A DNA stretch of 64,000 nucleotides from Methanoregula sp. (GTDB lineage Archaea; Halobacteriota; Methanomicrobia; Methanomicrobiales; Methanospirillaceae). Both the position numbers and the translations under genes were made by a program. The notes below the pieces were generated by a model. The model was not told where the DNA came from. It made no database searches and was given only the letters and a program-made list of their open reading frames with translations. The stretch covers positions 1 to 64,000 of the forward strand of contig NZ_JAJRCG010000006.1 of the NCBI RefSeq assembly GCF_028679125.1, read 5' to 3'. Positions 47,630 to 56,175 of this stretch are shown here, piece after piece. Every line of letters begins with the position of its first letter. Within the stretch, counting starts at the first letter, position 1.

Positions 47630-49612
47630 TTACATGAACAGGGAGAGAATCCGGAACGCAACCGCCCCGAGCGCGATGGCGAGCCCCGTCTCGAGTGCCG
47701 TGATGGAGAGCGCCCGTTTCCAGCCAAACTCATGAGCGAGCGCAAGGATGGTGGAGATGCAGGGTGCATAGAGCATCGCCACAAGGGCAAAGACGATCAG
47801 CTGCACAGGGGTAAGGACCGATGAGAAGACGGTGGTGCCAAAGAGGGCTGCAAGGGCAAGGATCGTCATCTCTTTCCGGATGATGCCGAAGACGAACACA
47901 ACACCGGTGATGGCAGGGAGACCGAGCAGGAGGACGGTGATGGGGGAAAGGGCTGCATTGATCGGTTCAAGGAGTCCCAGGGCATATGCGGCAGTGATGG
48001 CAATGCTGCCTGCGATATACGCGGGGAGCACGATCCCGATGAGCGAGCGGGTCCGCTGCCAAGTCTGGCCGACCACGCCCGGGAGGTGCGGGACATGGTA
48101 CTCCGGCATCTCCATGATCATACCCACTGACTCGCCCGGCAGGAGTTTGAACGCGAGCCGTCCGAGGATGATGATCAGGACAAAGTCGAGCAGGTAAAGG
48201 GCGAGCGCCCACCAGATGTTCACGAAGAGCGCAACAATACCGAGGATCACGATCGTCCGGGCCGAGCAGGGCACGAGCGTGACCAGGAATGCGGCAAGGA
48301 ACTTCTGCTTGGGCGATTCGATGATCCGGCACGAGAGGCAGGCCGGGACCGTGCAGCCGAATCCCAGCACCAGGGGGATGATCGCCTTTCCGTGCAGCCC
48401 CATCTTGTGCATGCCCTGGTCAAGCATGAGAGAGAAGCGGGTGAGAAAGCCCGAATCCTCGATGAGCGCGAGGAAGAGGTAGAAGGGGATGACATACGGG
48501 ATGATGAGCGTGACTGCCGCGACAAGGCCGGTCCATGCTCCGTTGAAGAGGATATCCACCACCGAACCCGTGGCCAGCGACCTGAGGGGCGCTATGCCGG
48601 ACAGGAATGCCGTGAGCGCTTCAGAGATCCAGGCCCCGACAATGAAGGTCCAGACCAGCAGTCCCCCGAGCATGAGTGCGAGGAGAATATACCCGAGCAC
48701 CGGGTGGAGGGCGACCCGGTCGATCCGTTCCGTGAGGGTGACTTCCTGGTCGCCGGGCGACCGGAATGCGACGGTGTCCGAGACCAGCTGTTCGGCAACA
48801 TGGTAGCGTTCCCCGCTCAGGATCGTGGATGCCTGTTCTCCATGGATCTTCTCCAGTTCCCGGGCAAATCCCTGTGCGGCAGTTACCGCATCGGGCGCCA
48901 GTTTCTTCACCTCCCAGAGAGTGTCCGGGTCACCCTCCAGCAGTTTGATCGCCGTCCAGCGGGGAGGGTAGCCTCCTGCACCGGCAGGCAGGAGATCCCG
49001 GATGCGGGTGATCCGGTCTTCAACTTCCCTGCCGAACGGCATGAGGTGCGGTCTGGGACGGGCGTGGATGGCTTCAACGATGGCATCCGAGAGTTCCAGG
49101 ATCCCCTTTCCCTGGATCGCGACCATCGGGATGACCGGTATGCCCAGCAGGCCGGAGAGCTTTGCATGGTCGAGCACGATCCCTTTCTGTGCCGCAAGAT
49201 CCATCTGGTTCACGGCAAGGATGAGCGGGCTCTCCAGTTCCACCAGCTGGAGGGTGAAGAAGAGGTTCCGTTCCAGCGCAGATGCATCCACGATGTTGAC
49301 AACCACATCGGGATGGTCGTGGGCGATGAACTCGCGGGAGACCTGCTCTTCGGTCGAGAGGGCCGAGATCGAGTAGATACCCGGAAGGTCGATCACCCGG
49401 ATCCGCAGGCCCCGGTACTGGAGGATGCCTTCTGCCCGTTCCACGGTCTTGCCCGGCCAGTTGCCGGTCTCCTGGTCCACGCCGGTGAGCTGGTTGAACG
49501 TGACGCTCTTGCCGACATTGGCATTGCCGGCAAGGGCAACAACGTATTCCGCCTTTTTGACCATTGGGGGGTGGGATGCACAGTTCCCGCCACAGCCCGG
49601 GCAGCCGTTCAT
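47630..49612 (-). CDS. feoB: Ferrous iron transport protein B
   Basis: 660 aa. The N-terminal GTPase domain has G1 GNANVGKSVTFNQLTG (about 31-46), G3 DLPGIYS, and G4 NQMD, after a cysteine-rich start CPGCGGNC. The membrane part has about 9-10 segments with two gate regions (for example VLGFGCTVPACLSCR, LVTLVPCSARTIVILG). It imports Fe(II) across the cytoplasmic membrane. The ATG overlaps the end of the DtxR-FeoA gene by 4 bp, so the regulator is coupled to the transporter. Confidence 0.94.
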   Translation of the reverse strand: MNGCPGCGGNCASHPPMVKKAEYVVALAGNANVGKSVTFNQLTGVDQETGNWPGKTVERAEGILQYRGLRIRVIDLPGIYSISALSTEEQVSREFIAHDHPDVVVNIVDASALERNLFFTLQLVELESPLILAVNQMDLAAQKGIVLDHAKLSGLLGIPVIPMVAIQGKGILELSDAIVEAIHARPRPHLMPFGREVEDRITRIRDLLPAGAGGYPPRWTAIKLLEGDPDTLWEVKKLAPDAVTAAQGFARELEKIHGEQASTILSGERYHVAEQLVSDTVAFRSPGDQEVTLTERIDRVALHPVLGYILLALMLGGLLVWTFIVGAWISEALTAFLSGIAPLRSLATGSVVDILFNGAWTGLVAAVTLIIPYVIPFYLFLALIEDSGFLTRFSLMLDQGMHKMGLHGKAIIPLVLGFGCTVPACLSCRIIESPKQKFLAAFLVTLVPCSARTIVILGIVALFVNIWWALALYLLDFVLIIILGRLAFKLLPGESVGMIMEMPEYHVPHLPGVVGQTWQRTRSLIGIVLPAYIAGSIAITAAYALGLLEPINAALSPITVLLLGLPAITGVVFVFGIIRKEMTILALAALFGTTVFSSVLTPVQLIVFALVAMLYAPCISTILALAHEFGWKRALSITALETGLAIALGAVAFRILSLFM

Positions 49613-50325
49613 CGGCCCTTCTCCCCGCAGGAAGCAACGAAGATATGGTCGGCAATGGCATGATCGATCGCCAGCCGCGTCTTGCGCACGGATATCTCAA
49701 CAGGGCCCTGCAAAGGAGCCTTCCGCACCAGCTGGATCTCGGTCTTCAGGGTGAGACCCAGATCCGTGAGGCGCTGGACAACGCTGTTGTCCCCGCGGAT
49801 GAACGCAATGGTACCCTTCTGGCCCGGGGCAAGGGAGGTGACCGGGATGAGCGGCTCGTCGCGGGAACCGGCAGCAACCGGTCTTGTCTCCTCAAGACAG
49901 GCCGAGCAGCTCTCGACCTGGCGGTTACAGGCCTCGATCAGGCTGCCGTGGGGGCAGCGGGCCGGGGCCTTGAGCAGCTTGCAGAGCGCACATTCCGTCT
50001 CGTCCGAGAGGGTGTGCTCCATCTTGCAGGCCTCGTCGTGCACGTTCTCCCGGTTGATATGAAGCACGTCGGTTAAAAAAACCTCGAGGAGCCGGTGACG
50101 GCGCTTCACCGTGCGTGCCATCTCCCGGCCGGTGTCGGTCAGGGTGGCACCCTTGTAGGGCTCATAGTGCACCAGCCCTTTCTCCGAGAGAACCTGGAGG
50201 ACTTCGGTGACGCTTGCAGGGGCAACCTTGAGGCACTTGGCAATTGCAGAGGTCCGGGCAATCCCCTGCTGCTCTTCGATATCGAGAATACTTTCAAGAT
50301 ACTCTTCGAGCTGCTCTGAAGCCAT
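49609..50325 (-). CDS. DtxR/MntR-type iron regulator fused to FeoA
   Basis: 238 aa from ATG at 50325. Residues 1-125 form the DtxR winged helix and dimer domain: EQLEEYLESILDIEEQQG, KVAPASVTEVLQVLSEKGLVHYEPYKGATLTDTG, and HRLLEVFLTDVLHINRENVHDEACKMEHTLSDE with metal-binding His/Cys/Glu. A cysteine-rich bridge CALCKLLKAPARCPHG and SCSACLEE follows. Residues 165-235 are a FeoA/SH3 domain (QKGTIAFIRGDNSVVQRLTDLGL). It should repress feoB when iron is sufficient. The gene start is 9 nt from a palindrome; no SD is seen, and a leaderless mRNA is likely. Confidence 0.9.
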   Translation of the reverse strand: MASEQLEEYLESILDIEEQQGIARTSAIAKCLKVAPASVTEVLQVLSEKGLVHYEPYKGATLTDTGREMARTVKRRHRLLEVFLTDVLHINRENVHDEACKMEHTLSDETECALCKLLKAPARCPHGSLIEACNRQVESCSACLEETRPVAAGSRDEPLIPVTSLAPGQKGTIAFIRGDNSVVQRLTDLGLTLKTEIQLVRKAPLQGPVEISVRKTRLAIDHAIADHIFVASCGEKGR

Positions 50326-50333
50326 GTACAATT

Positions 50334-50374
50334 TTTAGGTTTCCCTAAATTAATAGATTTCGGGAACCCTAAAT
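50334..50374. promoter_or_regulatory. Paired DtxR-type operators in a shared divergent promoter
   Basis: Site 1, TTTAGGTTTCCCTAAA (50334-50349), is a perfect inverted repeat around TTTC. Site 2, ATTTCGGGAACCCTAAAT (50357-50374), is one mismatch from the same form. Centres are 24 bp apart. Between them lies TAAATTAATAG, a TATA-like stretch that is about 25 nt from each start codon (50325 minus, 50381 plus). Sites therefore overlap both promoters. Confidence 0.7.
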
Positions 50375-50380
50375 CTCCGA

Positions 50381-51199
50381 ATGGCAGACGGGGAAATTTC
50401 CCGGACCCGCCAGCCCTATTCCGGGCCCGTTTTTACCGCCAGAATAGACAGGAGAGATTATAAGTATCGTGACGAAATGATCAATCGACTGATGTATACT
50501 TATAAATCCGGTATTGCACAGATCGACCAGATATCCGGGGGTTTTGATGCCGGGACAAATATCCTCATCCTTGCTCCGCCCATGAGCCTGGGCGATCAGC
50601 TGGCATACGCCCTCACCAGACCGCTCACGGGAGAATATGCGATTATTCTTTCCACCAACGAGCGTGCAGCCGAGGTGGTCGATGCCTTCAAGCTGGCCGG
50701 TGCAGACAAGCGGTTTACCGGTGTCATCGATGCCATTACCAAGAGTTCGACACCGACCATTGTCGATACGCCCCGCCTGATGTTCGTGTCGAGCCCCACC
50801 GACCTGACCGGGATCGGCATCAAGTTTTCCAATATGATCGAAACCATTTTCGAGGGCGATTTCTCTGACGGGGAAGCCGGACTCTTCCCGCCACCCATAC
50901 GGTTCTGCGTCAACTCAATCTCCACCCTGCTGATGTACCGCAGGCTCGAAGTCCTCTACCAGTTTCTCCACGTCCTCACCGCCAAACTGAAGAAGATCGA
51001 AGGCGTTGGCGTATATCTCCTCAACAGCGAGTCGTTCGATGAGAAGACCCTCTCCCTGATCAAACAGCTGATGACCTGTGTTATCGAGATCAAAGTGGAG
51101 CAGAACGTCAACTTCCTGCGCATCCGGGGAATTACCGGTGTGAGCGGGGACTGGATAAAATTCCAGGTTACGAAAGGCCAGGTCGTGATCCTGCCATGA
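50381..51199 (+). CDS. RecA/KaiC-like (RAD55-type) protein with degenerate nucleotide site
   Basis: 272 aa. The N-terminal 45 aa are followed by GIAQIDQISGGFDAGTNILILAPPMSLGDQLAYAL, in which the Walker A loop has become APPMSLGDQ without a Lys. Later strands PIRFCVNSISTLLMYRRLEVLYQFLHVL and KIEGVGVYLLNSESFD keep the KaiC/RAD55 look. The C-terminus (LRIRGITGVSGDWIKFQVT) is typical of the group. It starts from a region with DtxR-like palindromes and probably has a leaderless mRNA. It overlaps the next gene (RecA-GTPase fusion) by 4 bp. Function unknown. Confidence 0.75.
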   Translation: MADGEISRTRQPYSGPVFTARIDRRDYKYRDEMINRLMYTYKSGIAQIDQISGGFDAGTNILILAPPMSLGDQLAYALTRPLTGEYAIILSTNERAAEVVDAFKLAGADKRFTGVIDAITKSSTPTIVDTPRLMFVSSPTDLTGIGIKFSNMIETIFEGDFSDGEAGLFPPPIRFCVNSISTLLMYRRLEVLYQFLHVLTAKLKKIEGVGVYLLNSESFDEKTLSLIKQLMTCVIEIKVEQNVNFLRIRGITGVSGDWIKFQVTKGQVVILP

Positions 51200-52368
51200 T
51201 ATCGACCGGCGTGAACGGTCTTGACGAGATGCTGGGCCGGGGCATCCCGCAGGGCAGCAGGGTTCTGTACAGCCTTGAACCGGGTGCCAACGGCCAGCTC
51301 TTCATGATCTCCACACTCTCCTGTGCCCTGGCACGGGGGCACTCCTGCATGGTCATATTCCCGAATACGACCGTGGACGCGTACCGGAATGATGCTGCCA
51401 GGATGTATGGAGCACACCTGGATCTCACATCAGGACCGGTGACATTCCTGGATGCCATTGATCGTGAACGGATCGGGAAAAGCGCCGGTTCCGCTGAGGC
51501 ACGGGCCCGCGAATGGAAGGCGCGGATACAAAAACTCTGCCATGATCACAAGGTCACCGTGATCTTTGTCTATTTCGACCTGTTGTACGAGGAGTTCGGT
51601 CTTGAAACGGCCATGGAGATCCTCGAATCCGCACAAGAAGGCGCGGGGGGCATGAAGGTCACCATTATCCTGGAACACCTGAACCTTGAAGGGGCACCGC
51701 TGCTCGAACGGTTTATCCGGGATCTCTCCTTTGACTTTGTTCTTGCCATTCGTTCATCGTTCCGCCCCTTCCCGAATTTCAACTATTTCACGCTCGTCCA
51801 CACATCGTGGGGACCGGTACCGGTCCGGTCCCTGCCCTTCATCATTGCAGAAGGACGGGTCATTCCCTATATCCCGAGAATCGTGGTCACCGGCCCGGCA
51901 AATTCCGGGAAATCCACGTTTGTCATGAATGCCGCCGACGAGGGTCATTCCATAGACCGCCAGGAATCTGACGGGGGGTCAACAACCGTTGCCCTCGACT
52001 TCGGGTGGCTGCGCTGGAAAGATTTTGATATCACGCTGTACGGGACACCGGGACATACCCGGTTCGATCCCCTCATGCCCCCGTATCTCCGGCATGCGAT
52101 GGGGGCCATCGTGGTCATTGATGCCACAAAACCCGAGATGCTGCCGAGGGCCCGCCATATCATCAGCATGATCGAGAAACGGAGGATCGCCTATGCGATT
52201 GCCGCGAACAAGAACGACATGCCCGGTGTCATGAGTGCCGGGGAGATCCGGGAGGGTCTCGGCATAGGCGAGGATATCCCGGTCTTCCCGATCTCGGCAA
52301 CAAAGAAGGCCGATGTCCATTCTGTCCTCGAATCGCTGGTGGCTTCCATAACGCAGTTCTCCAACTAA
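51196..52368 (+). CDS. Fusion of RecA/KaiC-like domain and small GTPase
   Basis: 390 aa. Residues 1-220 are a second RecA/KaiC-like domain: [37 protein letters not shown] (P-loop degenerate), then [17 protein letters not shown] and [10 protein letters not shown]. Residues 228-385 are a Ras-like GTPase: G1 GPANSGKST (from residue 233), switch Thr in [10 protein letters not shown]3 [11 protein letters not shown]4 ANKNDM, G5 SATKK. The GTPGx form is that of COG2229/MglA-like GTPases. It is coupled with the RecA-like protein upstream. The two may form an ATP-independent scaffold controlled by GTP; that is inference. Confidence 0.82.
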
Positions 52369-52384
52369 AAAGGTGTCGCAGAGC

Positions 52385-53134
52385 ATGCTGACGTTTATTG
52401 GCCTGGGGCTTTTCGATAAGACTGACGTATCGGAGAAGGGACTCCGGCTGATCCATGCTGCCGACCGGGTCTTTCTTGAATGTTATACTTCGCGCCTTGG
52501 CGGCACGACCCGCGAGGAACTTGAGGAGTATTATGGCAAGGCGGTCACCCCGCTCTTCCGGGCGGACGTGGAACAGCACCCGGACGAACTGCTGGCAGCG
52601 GCAGAGAAAGGCAATGTGGTCTTCCTCTGTGCCGGCGATCCCATGGTCTCGACCACCCACTCGGACATCCGGATGCGGGCCGCTGCCCGGGGCATCAGAA
52701 CCGCGATCGTACACGGCGCATCCATCTCCAGCGCGATCTGCGGCCTCTCCGGCCTCCAGAACTACCGGTTCGGCAAGTCCTGTTCCCTGCCGTTCCCGCA
52801 GAAGAACTGGTTCCCCACCACCCCTCTCGACGTGATCCTTTCAAACCTCTCCCAGCGGCTCCACACGCTGGTCTTCCTCGATATCCAGGAAGAACGGTAC
52901 ATGACAGTACCGGAAGCAGTTGCCCTGCTGGAACAGATGGCGGCACCACGGAAAGCAGTGATTCCCCTGTACGTGGGGATTGCCCGTGCAGGGTCTGATG
53001 CGCCGGTGGTCCGGGCCGGATCTGCTGATACGGTACGGGCCACGGACTTTGGCCCGCCGCTCCACATCCTGGTGGTGCCGGCCGAGCTGCACGACATGGA
53101 ACGCGAGTACCTGGAGATGTTTGCCGGCCTATGA
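52385..53134 (+). CDS. dphB: Diphthine synthase DphB
   Basis: 249 aa from ATG at 52385. Tetrapyrrole methylase-like fold: [61 protein letters not shown], and [21 protein letters not shown]. DphB methylates the modified histidine of elongation factor 2, an archaeal/eukaryal step in diphthamide formation. It overlaps the DUF357 gene by 4 bp. It starts 16 bp after the stop of the GTPase fusion and may share that transcript. Confidence 0.93.
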
Positions 53135-53712
53135 AACGAGCGGAACTGCAGGCCCTGCTCTTCACCTCTCTTGCCATGACGGGGTGCACTGCCCCTGATG
53201 ACTCGCCGTACGGGAGATGCGGCCGTGCTATGATCCGCATGGCATCCGCATACGAGAGCGACGGGAAGACCTTCCTTGCCGGTGGCGATCCGGTCAATGC
53301 GCTGGCCGCGTTCCAGTACGGCCTCGGGTGGCTGCACTGCGGAGAGGCATCCGGCCTGCTGACCTGCCGGGGGGAACACCCGGGATGCCCGTTTAACGAG
53401 GCGTCCGAGCCGGTACCGGCTTCACACTCTGCAAAACTCGACGAGAAGACGAGGAGATACGCGCGACTGCTCGACACTGCCCTTGCGTCCGTTACTCCCG
53501 CACCCGATCCCGGGGCTTCCCCGTATACCTTTGCCGTGCAGGTTCAGTTCATCGCCATGATATACCTCAGGCAGGGAACAATGCTTGCAGCGTCCGGGAA
53601 ACGGGAAGATGCACTGGCCTGTTTCAGTTACGGGCACGGCTGGCTCGATGCCGGCGTTCAGGCAGGGCTTTTTATCATCCATGCAAACCGGGAGATCTTC
53701 ACGGTGGACTAA
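53131..53712 (+). CDS. DUF357-family protein
   Basis: 193 aa with the DUF357 pattern: a helical domain with [16 protein letters not shown] at the C-terminal end and an internal counterpart [16 protein letters not shown] near residue 70, showing a duplication. TPR-like helices surround both. Cysteines near 19, 30 and 80-90 have no visible metal arrangement. The function of the family is unknown, although members frequently lie near the diphthamide or translation genes of archaea. Confidence 0.78.
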
Positions 53713-53832
53713 AAGCGCCATCCCGTTTCCCGTCATCAGGGGTTTTCACGAGATAAAGAGGTAAATACTATGGCTCATAACCTGTTAGGTTAACAGCCGA
53801 TCCAGGATAGATCGTGCAAGAGCGGGGAGATC

Positions 53833-54864
53833 ATGGATAAATCACAGGTAAAATGGCTCTATATTTCCGTTGGTTTCTCCCTTGCAGTCCTCGTTGTCAT
53901 CCTCATTCTCACCATCAACGAGAACACCCTTTCCTACCTCACCAAGATCAATCCCTGGTTCCTCCTCCTCGCATTCCTCACCCACCTCCTGACCATGTGC
54001 TTCTGGGCAATGCGGGTCAAGACTATGTCCGGTTCGCTTGGCTACCGGGTCGGGTTCTGGTACAGCCTTAACCTCGTCTTTGCCAACCTGCTCGCCTCGG
54101 CCATCACCCCGGCCCAGGCCGGCGGGGAACCGGTCAGGGTTCACGAGCTCTACAAGGCAAATATTCCCCTCGGCGATGCAACCGCCGTGGTCATCATGGA
54201 GCGGGTGCTGGACGGGATCGCACTCGCCGGACTGGCAGCATTTGCCATGATTTTCCTGACCGACCAGTGGAAGAGCCTTGGCTCGATCTCCGAGATCATG
54301 GTCTTCATCACCTGGATCTTCGTTGTCGGGTGCCTCTTCCTGTTCTACCTGGCAATCCGGCGTCCCGACGTGGTAAAACGCGTGGTGGCCCGGTGCACGG
54401 TCTGGCTGACAAGGAAGTGGGAGAATTCCCGCGTCGAGGCACTCCAGAACCGGGCAGACAAGGAGATCGACAACTTCCAGGGGGCAACGATCAAGTTCGT
54501 CCATACCGCCAAGTGGGGTCTTGTCCTGGGCATGATCTTTACCCTCCTCTACTGGGTCTCCGAGATCGTCACGGCGTCCCTCATCCTCATGGGCCTGGGA
54601 CAGCCGCCCCTCTTCCTCGAATCGTTCGTGATCCAGCTCATCCTCGCCATCCTGATGATGATCCCGCTCACACCGGGCAGCTCGGGTATTGCCGAGGTCG
54701 GTGCAACCACCATGTACGCCCTCTTCATACCGGCCTCTGTTGTCGGCATCTTCGTTGTCCTCTGGCGTATCGTCCTCTACTACTTCAATATCGCCCTGGG
54801 CATCCTCTCCAGCATCATCATCGTACGCAGGGAAGCCCGGAACAGCCTGAACGAGAAGACCTGA
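53833..54864 (+). CDS. Flippase-like membrane protein (UPF0104, lysylphosphatidylglycerol synthase TM family)
   Basis: 343 aa with about eight membrane segments. N-terminal WLYISVGFSLAVLVVILILT, the conserved ITPAQAGGEPVRVHELYKANI loop and VVIMERVLDGIALAG, and a second half with MMIPLTPGSSGIAEVGATTMYALFI, are the marks of PF03706. Such proteins may flip or modify lipids in the envelope, but the archaeal reaction is unknown. The gene is preceded by GGGGAG. It is likely an independent unit. Confidence 0.88.
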   Translation: MDKSQVKWLYISVGFSLAVLVVILILTINENTLSYLTKINPWFLLLAFLTHLLTMCFWAMRVKTMSGSLGYRVGFWYSLNLVFANLLASAITPAQAGGEPVRVHELYKANIPLGDATAVVIMERVLDGIALAGLAAFAMIFLTDQWKSLGSISEIMVFITWIFVVGCLFLFYLAIRRPDVVKRVVARCTVWLTRKWENSRVEALQNRADKEIDNFQGATIKFVHTAKWGLVLGMIFTLLYWVSEIVTASLILMGLGQPPLFLESFVIQLILAILMMIPLTPGSSGIAEVGATTMYALFIPASVVGIFVVLWRIVLYYFNIALGILSSIIIVRREARNSLNEKT

Positions 54865-54916
54865 CCATCGCTACCTGTATCCTTATCACGCTTGCCGGCA
54901 ATCTCTGTGCACAGGC

Positions 54917-55369
54917 ATGACACAGGTCCGGTGCGAGGTCAAAGGGGTATTCATGGCTATCAGCGATGCTGCCACGGTACCGCTCGTGATCCTCACGGAT
55001 GGTTCCGGCCGCCTCCTGCCGATCTTCATCGGCATCTGGGAAGCCGTCTCGATCAACAGCGCCAGGAACGGGGAGATCCTGCCCCGGCCGTTCACCCACG
55101 ATCTCTTCCTGGACCTGTGCGGGAAGTTCTCGATAACCCTGCGATCTCTCCAGATCGACAGTATCGAGGACGGGATCTATTACGCCCAGCTGGTCTTTGT
55201 CAACCACCGGCACGAGGAGTATCTTGACTGCCGCCCGAGCGATGGGATTGCCCTTGCACTCAGGGCCGATGTCCCGATCTTTGTGGAGGAGAGCGTGCTT
55301 GCATCCTCTGCACAGAAAGCAGAAGACCTGCCGCAGGTGGTCGAACTCTCCTCGTTCCTCCAGAAATAA
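54917..55369 (+). CDS. DUF151 (bifunctional nuclease-like) protein
   Basis: 150 aa. The DUF151 core is easy to follow: PLVILTDGSGRLLPIFIGIWEAVSI, RPFTHDLFLDLCGKFSITL, IYYAQLVFVNH and DCRPSDGIALALRADVPIFVEESVL. Plant and bacterial members have been reported to have nuclease activity, but the archaeal role is unknown. It lies 52 bp after the flippase gene and 51 bp from the minus-strand hisE end. Confidence 0.88.
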   Translation: MTQVRCEVKGVFMAISDAATVPLVILTDGSGRLLPIFIGIWEAVSINSARNGEILPRPFTHDLFLDLCGKFSITLRSLQIDSIEDGIYYAQLVFVNHRHEEYLDCRPSDGIALALRADVPIFVEESVLASSAQKAEDLPQVVELSSFLQK

Positions 55370-55420
55370 GCGGGAACCCAAGGGGAATACGGCTGGCCCC
55401 TCAGGAAAAAAGAGGGAGAA

Positions 55421-55735
55421 TTACTTCCTGCGGTGCTCCAGTTCCTGCATCACCAACGAGAGGTCGACATCTGCTGCCCGGAGTGCGACAAGCAGGTGGA
55501 AGAGGAGATCGGCTGCCTCGCTCGAAGTCCGCTCCGGGACACCGTTCTTGACGGCAAGAATGAACTCGGTCGACTCCTCGCCAACCTTCTCCAGCACCTT
55601 GTCGATCCCTTTCTTATCCGTGAAGAGGCTGGTGGTATAGGATCCGGTTTTCGGGTTCTCTGCACGATCGCAGATCACCTGCCAGAGTTCGGCAATGATC
55701 CGGGGATCCACGTCGGGTTTCATACTGGGCTTCAT
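55421..55735 (-). CDS. hisE: Phosphoribosyl-ATP pyrophosphatase
   Basis: 104 aa from ATG at 55735, with AAGGAAGAATC before it; the frame stays open upstream inside the NusA-like gene. MazG-type helices contain EESTEFILAVKNG and SEAADLLFHLLVAL, whose Glu/Asp residues bind magnesium. It hydrolyses phosphoribosyl-ATP in histidine synthesis. Its start overlaps the stop of the NusA-like gene (ATGA). The usual His partners are not in the window. Confidence 0.92.
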   Translation of the reverse strand: MKPSMKPDVDPRIIAELWQVICDRAENPKTGSYTTSLFTDKKGIDKVLEKVGEESTEFILAVKNGVPERTSSEAADLLFHLLVALRAADVDLSLVMQELEHRRK

Positions 55736-56175
55736 GATTCTTCCTTTTGCAGCAGGACTTCTCCCACTTCGATCCCATAAAACCTGCGGCAGAGGATGCG
55801 CGCTTTCTCGATATTGCACCCCGCTTTGCCGATAGCGATTCCTAGGTCGCTCCTCTGCCTGACGAACACGTTCACCGGCACGTCCTCTGCGGTCCGTTCG
55901 ACCCCGGTCACCTCGGCAGGCTTGAAGATATTGGCGATAAACGCATCAGGAGTGTCGGCAAACTCGACCATCTCGATCCGCTTGCCCAGCACATTCTGGA
56001 GCCGCTTGATATTCTCGCCCTTCTTGCCGATGGCAAGACCCATGTCACCCAGCCGGATCACGTAGATTACCCGGTCGAACCGGTCGTCTATCACGCAGTC
56101 GAGGGCTGTCGATTTCGTGAGGATCCGCAGTTCTTCAATGTACCTTCGCTCCTTAAAGCCGATATTGCGCTCCAT
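55732..56175 (-). CDS. nusA: Archaeal NusA-like KH-domain transcription factor
   Basis: 147 aa, the archaeal short form with two KH domains and no S1 domain. KH1 has VIYVIRLGDMGLAIGKKGENIKRLQNVL; KH2 has VFVRQRSDLGIAIGKAGCNIEKARIL; both carry the GxxG loop (GKKG, GKAG). It binds RNA during transcription elongation or termination. In many archaea this gene lies with RNA polymerase or ribosomal protein genes; here it is with hisE. Confidence 0.92.
   Translation of the reverse strand: MERNIGFKERRYIEELRILTKSTALDCVIDDRFDRVIYVIRLGDMGLAIGKKGENIKRLQNVLGKRIEMVEFADTPDAFIANIFKPAEVTGVERTAEDVPVNVFVRQRSDLGIAIGKAGCNIEKARILCRRFYGIEVGEVLLQKEES

Follow-up and report, generated by a model that had tools for sequence, protein, structure and literature searches.

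What does a pair of overlapping genes do beside the ferrous iron uptake genes of a methanogen? The pair, here called P1 and P2, lies next to dtxR and feoB in a Methanoregula genome, within a stretch of 64,000 nucleotides that was analysed as a whole (the window). The locus has the following parts, in window coordinates.

47630..49612, minus strand: FeoB, the sole feoB detected in the genome (TIGR00437, 501.6 bits; genome search).
49609..50325, minus strand: DtxR-FeoA regulator, with its ATG at 50325 (Pfam Fe_dep_repress, Fe_dep_repr_C and FeoA).
50381..50491, plus strand: in-frame extension 5' of P1, 37 codons, probably untranslated (not conserved; stop at codon -1 in nine relatives).
50492..51199, plus strand: P1, a DUF7504 protein of 235 aa, a single KaiC/RecA-like domain without Walker A (Pfam PF24336, conserved start, AlphaFold, Foldseek matches to KaiC, PH0284 and FlaH).
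51196..52368, plus strand: P2, a KaiC-like domain (aa 1 to ~224) followed by an MglA-type GTPase (aa ~226-390) (Pfam, AlphaFold, Foldseek, PDB sequence matches).
52373..53134, plus strand: dph5 (diphthine synthase), a conserved neighbor 3' of P2 (TIGR00522; synteny).

An earlier note on this DNA described a coupled gene pair, and P1 and P2 do lie on the same strand with a 4-bp overlap (51196-51199). It also placed the start of P1 at 50381, which is wrong: this adds 37 codons that are absent from the relatives, and most orthologues begin at the position equivalent to the ATG at 50492. A stop codon occupies codon -1 of this ATG in nine of 20 relatives inspected, and protein matches extended 5' of it cross stops in many genomes. 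Because P1 starts at 50492 and not at 50381, the space between dtxR and P1 is 166 bp instead of the 55 bp first given. The dph5 gene is probably outside the P1-P2 module; the order dph5, ORF193, YbhN-like, BFN-like, hisE, nusA-like (window 52373-56175, 3' of the pair) is largely kept across the order Methanomicrobiales.

Two KaiC-like domains without an ATP site

P1 is a member of Pfam DUF7504 (PF24336, E 2e-24, 87.3 bits against a cut-off of 27), a family for which a literature search returned no papers, and the N-terminal half of P2 (P2-N) has a weak Pfam KaiC match over residues 2-124. The AlphaFold models are confident (pLDDT 93.6 for P1 and 87.8 for P2). Compared with the PDB by Foldseek, P1 matched KaiC, the RecA-superfamily protein PH0284 and FlaH, and P2 matched KaiC with a poor whole-chain superposition (TM ~0.45), as expected for a query with two domains. 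A PDB sequence search with P1 gave no matches. Aligned with hhalign, the profiles of P1 and P2-N prove homologous (E 1.3e-9). As modeled, both are KaiC/RecA-superfamily folds, in agreement with the first description of the locus as two degenerate KaiC-like domains, the second fused to a GTPase; Walker A is absent from both.

Not one of 77 P2-N domains has a canonical Walker A motif, and only four of 83 P1 proteins do, all from one family (f9) outside Methanomicrobiales. The other outgroup P1 proteins retain a GK pair, whereas those of Methanomicrobiales lack the lysine. This pattern indicates that the loss of the ATP site in P1 is derived within the Methanomicrobiales lineage; in P2-N, judging by the alignments, the loss is common to all homologues. 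The proposed loss of both ATPase sites thus stands for P2-N everywhere and for P1 throughout Methanomicrobiales, but not for the four distant P1 proteins with an intact P-loop. Close homologues with intact Walker motifs, which the earlier note had named as the observation that would count against it, were not found.

KaiC-like and inactivated KaiC-like proteins have been proposed as archaeal signaling hubs (a proposal relayed via PMC5847659). Two further DUF7504-like genes of the same genome (L278:4899-5591 and L279:4982-5557) adjoin genes for PAS-domain proteins, a neighborhood that fits a signaling role.

The MglA-type GTPase half of P2

The C-terminal half of P2 matches the Pfam families GTP_EFTU, Arf and Ras (E 3e-11 to 2e-7, residues ~228-386), and a PDB sequence search returned Rab3, Arl8 and Arf over aa 222-384. 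Three of its motifs were located as follows.

51892..51918, plus strand: G1 P-loop GPANSGKST (canonical in 77 of 77 homologues).
52042..52056, plus strand: G3 GTPGH, which is GTPGQ in most relatives (GTPG in 74 of 77).
52207..52218, plus strand: G4 NKND ([NT]KxD in 67 of 77; absent in L063, L072, L073 and others).

G1, G2, G4 and G5 are intact in the P2 of the window, with G3 reading GTPGH, and P2 homologues typically have TTV or TTI at G2, so that the threonine is present. A G2 threonine together with G3 GTPGQ is the pattern of MglA Groups 2-5 (PMC4316618), and the G1 consensus of these groups, GxxxxGK[ST], is found in every homologue. We considered the missing G3 aspartate as a sign of degeneration and set this aside, as the residue is absent in all MglA. 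The criteria for MglA also include a single domain of less than 240 aa and an MglB gene within a few genes. P2 is 390 aa long with an N-terminal KaiC-like domain, and an MglB-like gene is close by in 22 of 24 loci elsewhere, but neither in the window nor at any Methanomicrobiales locus; because of the latter, we file P2 as MglA-like and not as a standard MglA.

The GTPase motifs, said earlier to be kept, are indeed kept in the window, but G4 has been lost in some Methanoregula relatives (L063, L072 and L073). In the P2 proteins of these three loci, intact G2 and G3 are gone as well and G1 is retained. The predicted GTP switch on a KaiC/RecA-like scaffold is supported. The statement that no described system has this make-up was too strong, given a GTPase with the motifs of MglA Groups 2-5 and an MglB-like partner gene outside Methanomicrobiales.

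Distribution of the pair and origin of the fusion

In 99 relatives searched (cut-offs of E < 1e-30 for P1 and E < 1e-60 for P2), a P1 orthologue is present in 56 and a P2 orthologue in 40. Each of the 40 Methanomicrobiales genomes with P2 has P1 too, a conservation on which the first interpretation of the locus depended, and P1 occurs alone in 16. Full-length P2 fusions are found outside Methanomicrobiales in many families of the same phylum, and also in Ca. Alkanophaga, a Thermoplasmata MAG, Methanobacteriaceae and a nanohaloarchaeon; a P1-like gene adjoins P2 in 21 of 24 distinct loci outside the order.

In a tree built from 41 GTPase domains of fusions and 18 stand-alone ones, these two groups separate with support of 100/99, and the 17 Methanomicrobiales fusions form one branch (98/89). 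On this tree the P2 fusion has a single origin with respect to its near relatives, the stand-alone GTPases being those matched in the P2 search.

At four loci (L067, L069, L093 and L101), P1, P2 or both are broken up, shortened or present only as remnants, and the pair is therefore dispensable there.

A probable Roadblock partner

Outside Methanomicrobiales, 22 of 24 loci have a gene for a protein of 117-137 aa next to the pair, and one of the two loci without it (L142) stops at a contig edge. Three of these proteins were scanned and all are Roadblock/LC7 proteins (Pfam Robl_LC7, E 1e-13 to 2e-17); the remainder were assigned to Roadblock by similarity to these three. The Roadblock proteins beside the pair carry the Asp-Gly pair noted in PMC4316618. 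A V4R-domain gene is found near the module Roadblock in seven loci (L129, L130, L136, L137, L138, L139 and L188; two members scanned).

The window and all 40 Methanomicrobiales P1-P2 loci lack a Roadblock gene. In the same genome, the Roadblock closest to that of the three-gene module (triad type) is at C1:99649-100005, away from P1-P2. A Roadblock tree places the Methanomicrobiales protein on the triad side, apart from the pilus-linked type, with support of 100/98, although deeper placement is weak and branches are long. In each of 10 genomes examined, the Methanomicrobiales Roadblock gene is followed directly by a gene for a REC-MetOD2 response regulator. The two genes (L256:5650-6653, equal to C1:99649-100652 of the same genome) are near RNA polymerase genes and a MinD/ParA-like gene.

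This Methanomicrobiales Roadblock is present in 38 of 40 P2-positive genomes versus 25 of 43 that lack both P1 and P2 (Fisher p 8e-5, a value that ignores relatedness and was obtained with a profile for which several seed sequences came from P2-positive genomes). The association has p values of 0.007 within the genus and 7e-4 in genomes at least 90% complete, again ignoring relatedness, and the Roadblock is also retained where P2 has been lost. As the locus itself has no Roadblock gene in Methanomicrobiales, the partner named for this order is a guess.

From these observations we propose, with a probability of about 0.6, that archaea have a GTP switch of the MglA/MglB type that uses two KaiC-like subunits and a Roadblock protein as GAP/GEF, and that P1-P2 represents it in Methanomicrobiales. 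The GTPase half of P2 would be the switch. P1 and P2-N, KaiC-like but without ATP binding in Methanomicrobiales, would most likely form a pair that serves as scaffold or output platform. The Roadblock protein, presumably in contact with P2, may serve as its GAP/GEF by analogy with MglA/MglB; it is encoded beside the pair in most other archaea, and in Methanomicrobiales the best candidate would be the one encoded elsewhere, ahead of REC-MetOD2. MglB has both GAP and GEF activities, and the response regulator RomR takes part with MglA and MglB (PMC6785124); REC-MetOD2 might feed a signal in, as RomR does for MglA/MglB in Myxococcus. Weighing against an MglA/MglB-type switch are the lack of Roadblock at the locus, the 16 genomes with P1 but without P2, the G4 losses and the gene decay. 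A further point is that adjacency to feo genes is limited to one order, where many other gene neighborhoods are conserved too.

A more far-reaching proposal is that a three-part switch (KaiC-like GTPase fusion, DUF7504 partner and Roadblock), not described as a system, was recruited in Methanomicrobiales to an iron-uptake operon and its Roadblock wired to a response regulator, the GTP state linking two-component signaling to Fe(II) import. We regard this as rather improbable. The defined three-gene module, with its single-origin fusion and its presence in many archaeal families, can be tested in vitro at once, and would shed light on how KaiC-like, GTPase and two-component signaling are combined in archaea.

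Iron uptake genes and the feoB scar

The link to feo genes suggested earlier is real, as the pair adjoins dtxR-feoB in 35 of 40 Methanomicrobiales loci. In 20 loci from four families, P1 shares the strand of feoB and starts 1-14 bp 3' of it; in two more, feoB and P1 abut or overlap, so that P1 comes directly after feoB in about 22 of the 40. The FeoB proteins of these collinear loci are only 33-38% identical to that of the window. In loci with the feo type of the window (66-83% identical), the layout is divergent or the gap is close to 150 bp.

Although the window belongs to the divergent type, a trace of the collinear one can be recognized in front of its P1.

50450..50480, plus strand: scar left by the 3' end of a former collinear feoB, with 11 nt between it and the P1 start (alignment; conserved position in seven divergent loci).

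The window scar, 31 bp in length, reads AGGAGAGATTATAAGTATCGTGACGAAATGA, and in L070 the older collinear feoB has the 3' end AGGAGCAATTATAAACATTCTGATGAAATGA, which also stops 11 nt before P1. Against 300 shuffles, the alignment of the window scar exceeds all of them only with L070 (27 versus 23), and ties one with L068. The same stretch is found in the same place in L062, L063, L064, L069, L073 and L101, with scores of up to 50 versus null maxima of 22-33, and the descent of this group of sequences from a feoB end is well supported by these alignments. A genome search found no second feoB; one FeoB remains. Since the scar is retained before P1, the divergent layout of the window is the derived one, and we infer that a different dtxR-feoB set in reverse orientation took the place of the old feo genes. 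The locus offers a clear example of one feo set exchanged for another in situ, in which the scar fixes the direction of change.

The likely history is as follows. In the Methanomicrobiales ancestor or early in the order, the pair would have landed directly behind feoB, probably sharing a transcript with the iron-uptake genes. In the window lineage, the opposite-orientation dtxR-feoB set would then have displaced the old one, leaving the short scar.

Such a history raises the possibility that P1-P2 acts on iron uptake itself, binding FeoB or FeoA and gating or tuning Fe(II) import through a second GTP switch. The tight spacing behind feoB across four families speaks for this, as does the persistence of the feoB-P1 neighborhood through the exchange of one feo set for another. 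However, co-transcription is lost after that exchange, and 5 of 40 loci in the order have no feo neighbors. The 24 loci outside Methanomicrobiales are all without feo genes in the vicinity, and iron can therefore not be the ancestral role of the module. We consider a direct action on iron uptake unlikely.

Surface structures and motility

The feo adjacency would be incidental if the module controlled type IV pili or the archaellum, by analogy with MglA in Myxococcus. Pili are a target of MglA systems, the KaiC-like FlaH is a structural match of P1, and Roadblock proteins are common in archaeal pilus loci (PMC4858521). Yet no pilus or archaellum genes were seen at P1-P2 loci, as far as their partial annotation goes, and the pilus-linked Roadblock of the same genome, which we set aside as a partner of P2, falls in a different branch of the Roadblock tree. 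A role in surface structures or motility is doubtful on this evidence. At L257:6055-9823, two Roadblock genes of a separate branch lie directly 5' of a type II/IV secretion (PilB3-like) ATPase gene.

Palindromes upstream of dtxR

The region between dtxR and P1 was said to hold two palindromes, and these are present and conserved.

50334..50349, no strand: DtxR-type palindrome 1, TTTAGGTTTCCCTAAA, 9-24 bp upstream of dtxR (window count, position across loci).
50358..50373, no strand: DtxR-type palindrome 2, TTTCGGGAACCCTAAA, 33-48 bp upstream of dtxR (window count, position across loci).

They consist of TTTAGGnnnnCCTAAA and a copy with one mismatch, giving two matches in the 64-kb window versus 0.06 expected. 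An iron-controlled pair, in which DtxR binds the palindromes and represses P1-P2 from the shared intergenic region, has in its favor that these conserved sites lie between both genes, and a DtxR dimer bound there could in principle affect the more distant promoter. The sites are, however, 119-158 bp upstream of the P1 start, and their position is fixed relative to dtxR wherever P1 is: most loci that carry the feo type of the window, among them L075 (both sites) and L076 (first site only), have them at about -25 and -50 of dtxR, and in these two dtxR-feoB is collinear and the palindromes are ~2.8 kb from P1. Loci with the other feo type lack them. Thus the palindromes track dtxR and belong to the feo genes, and having followed their positions across the 40 loci, we set them aside as a P1-P2 operator; the earlier suggestion that they control the pair is not supported, and repression of P1-P2 from these sites appears improbable.

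Genome-wide, the palindrome pattern has five sites per strand, those of the window included, versus 21 for a reversed control, and is not enriched; with fewer sites than the control, no regulon can be derived from it. The three other sites have no obvious iron gene among the ORFs listed, which are themselves unannotated. A DNA hairpin in this region (z -2.9) is expected from the palindromes and was not used.

That P1 and P2 are relics in decay and do little in the genus of the window, as repeated P2 loss, split or truncated P1 and G4 loss in relatives might suggest, is distinctly improbable, given that P1 is 88% identical between the window and G033, that G1 is intact in all P2 proteins and that both genes of the window are intact.

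Comparison with known systems

P1 and P2-N share their fold with the archaeal KaiC family (KaiC, FlaH/ArlH and iKaiC), but differ in that P2-N lacks Walker A everywhere and P1 lacks it in Methanomicrobiales, and in that P2 carries a GTPase fusion. With the Feo ferrous iron uptake operons the pair shares its genomic position and, in most families of Methanomicrobiales, a probable co-transcription, but P1 and P2 match no known Feo component and stand without feo neighbors in other archaea.

The Asgard set of GTPase, Roadblock and TRAPPC3-V4R proteins (PMC10933270) resembles the module in its GTPase and Roadblock, and in seven loci in a V4R gene nearby. Unlike that set, the GTPase of the module is MglA-like instead of Rab-like and is fused to a KaiC-like domain, and the tie to V4R is one of gene order only.

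The module was also compared with MglA/MglB, and especially with the euryarchaeal Group 4 MglA (PMC4316618). P2 has the same G1-G5 motifs, the GTPGQ pattern and the G2 threonine, and outside Methanomicrobiales the pair has a Roadblock partner gene next door. The differences are the KaiC-like domain joined to the GTPase, the gene for another KaiC-like subunit alongside and, in Methanomicrobiales, the unlinked Roadblock gene. The 2014 survey by Wuichet and Sogaard-Andersen recorded Group 4 MglA in methanogens without conserved neighbors, and set aside sequences longer than 240 aa (PMC4316618). A module with a long fusion protein such as P2 bears on the euryarchaeal MglA-like GTPases, a class without assigned function.
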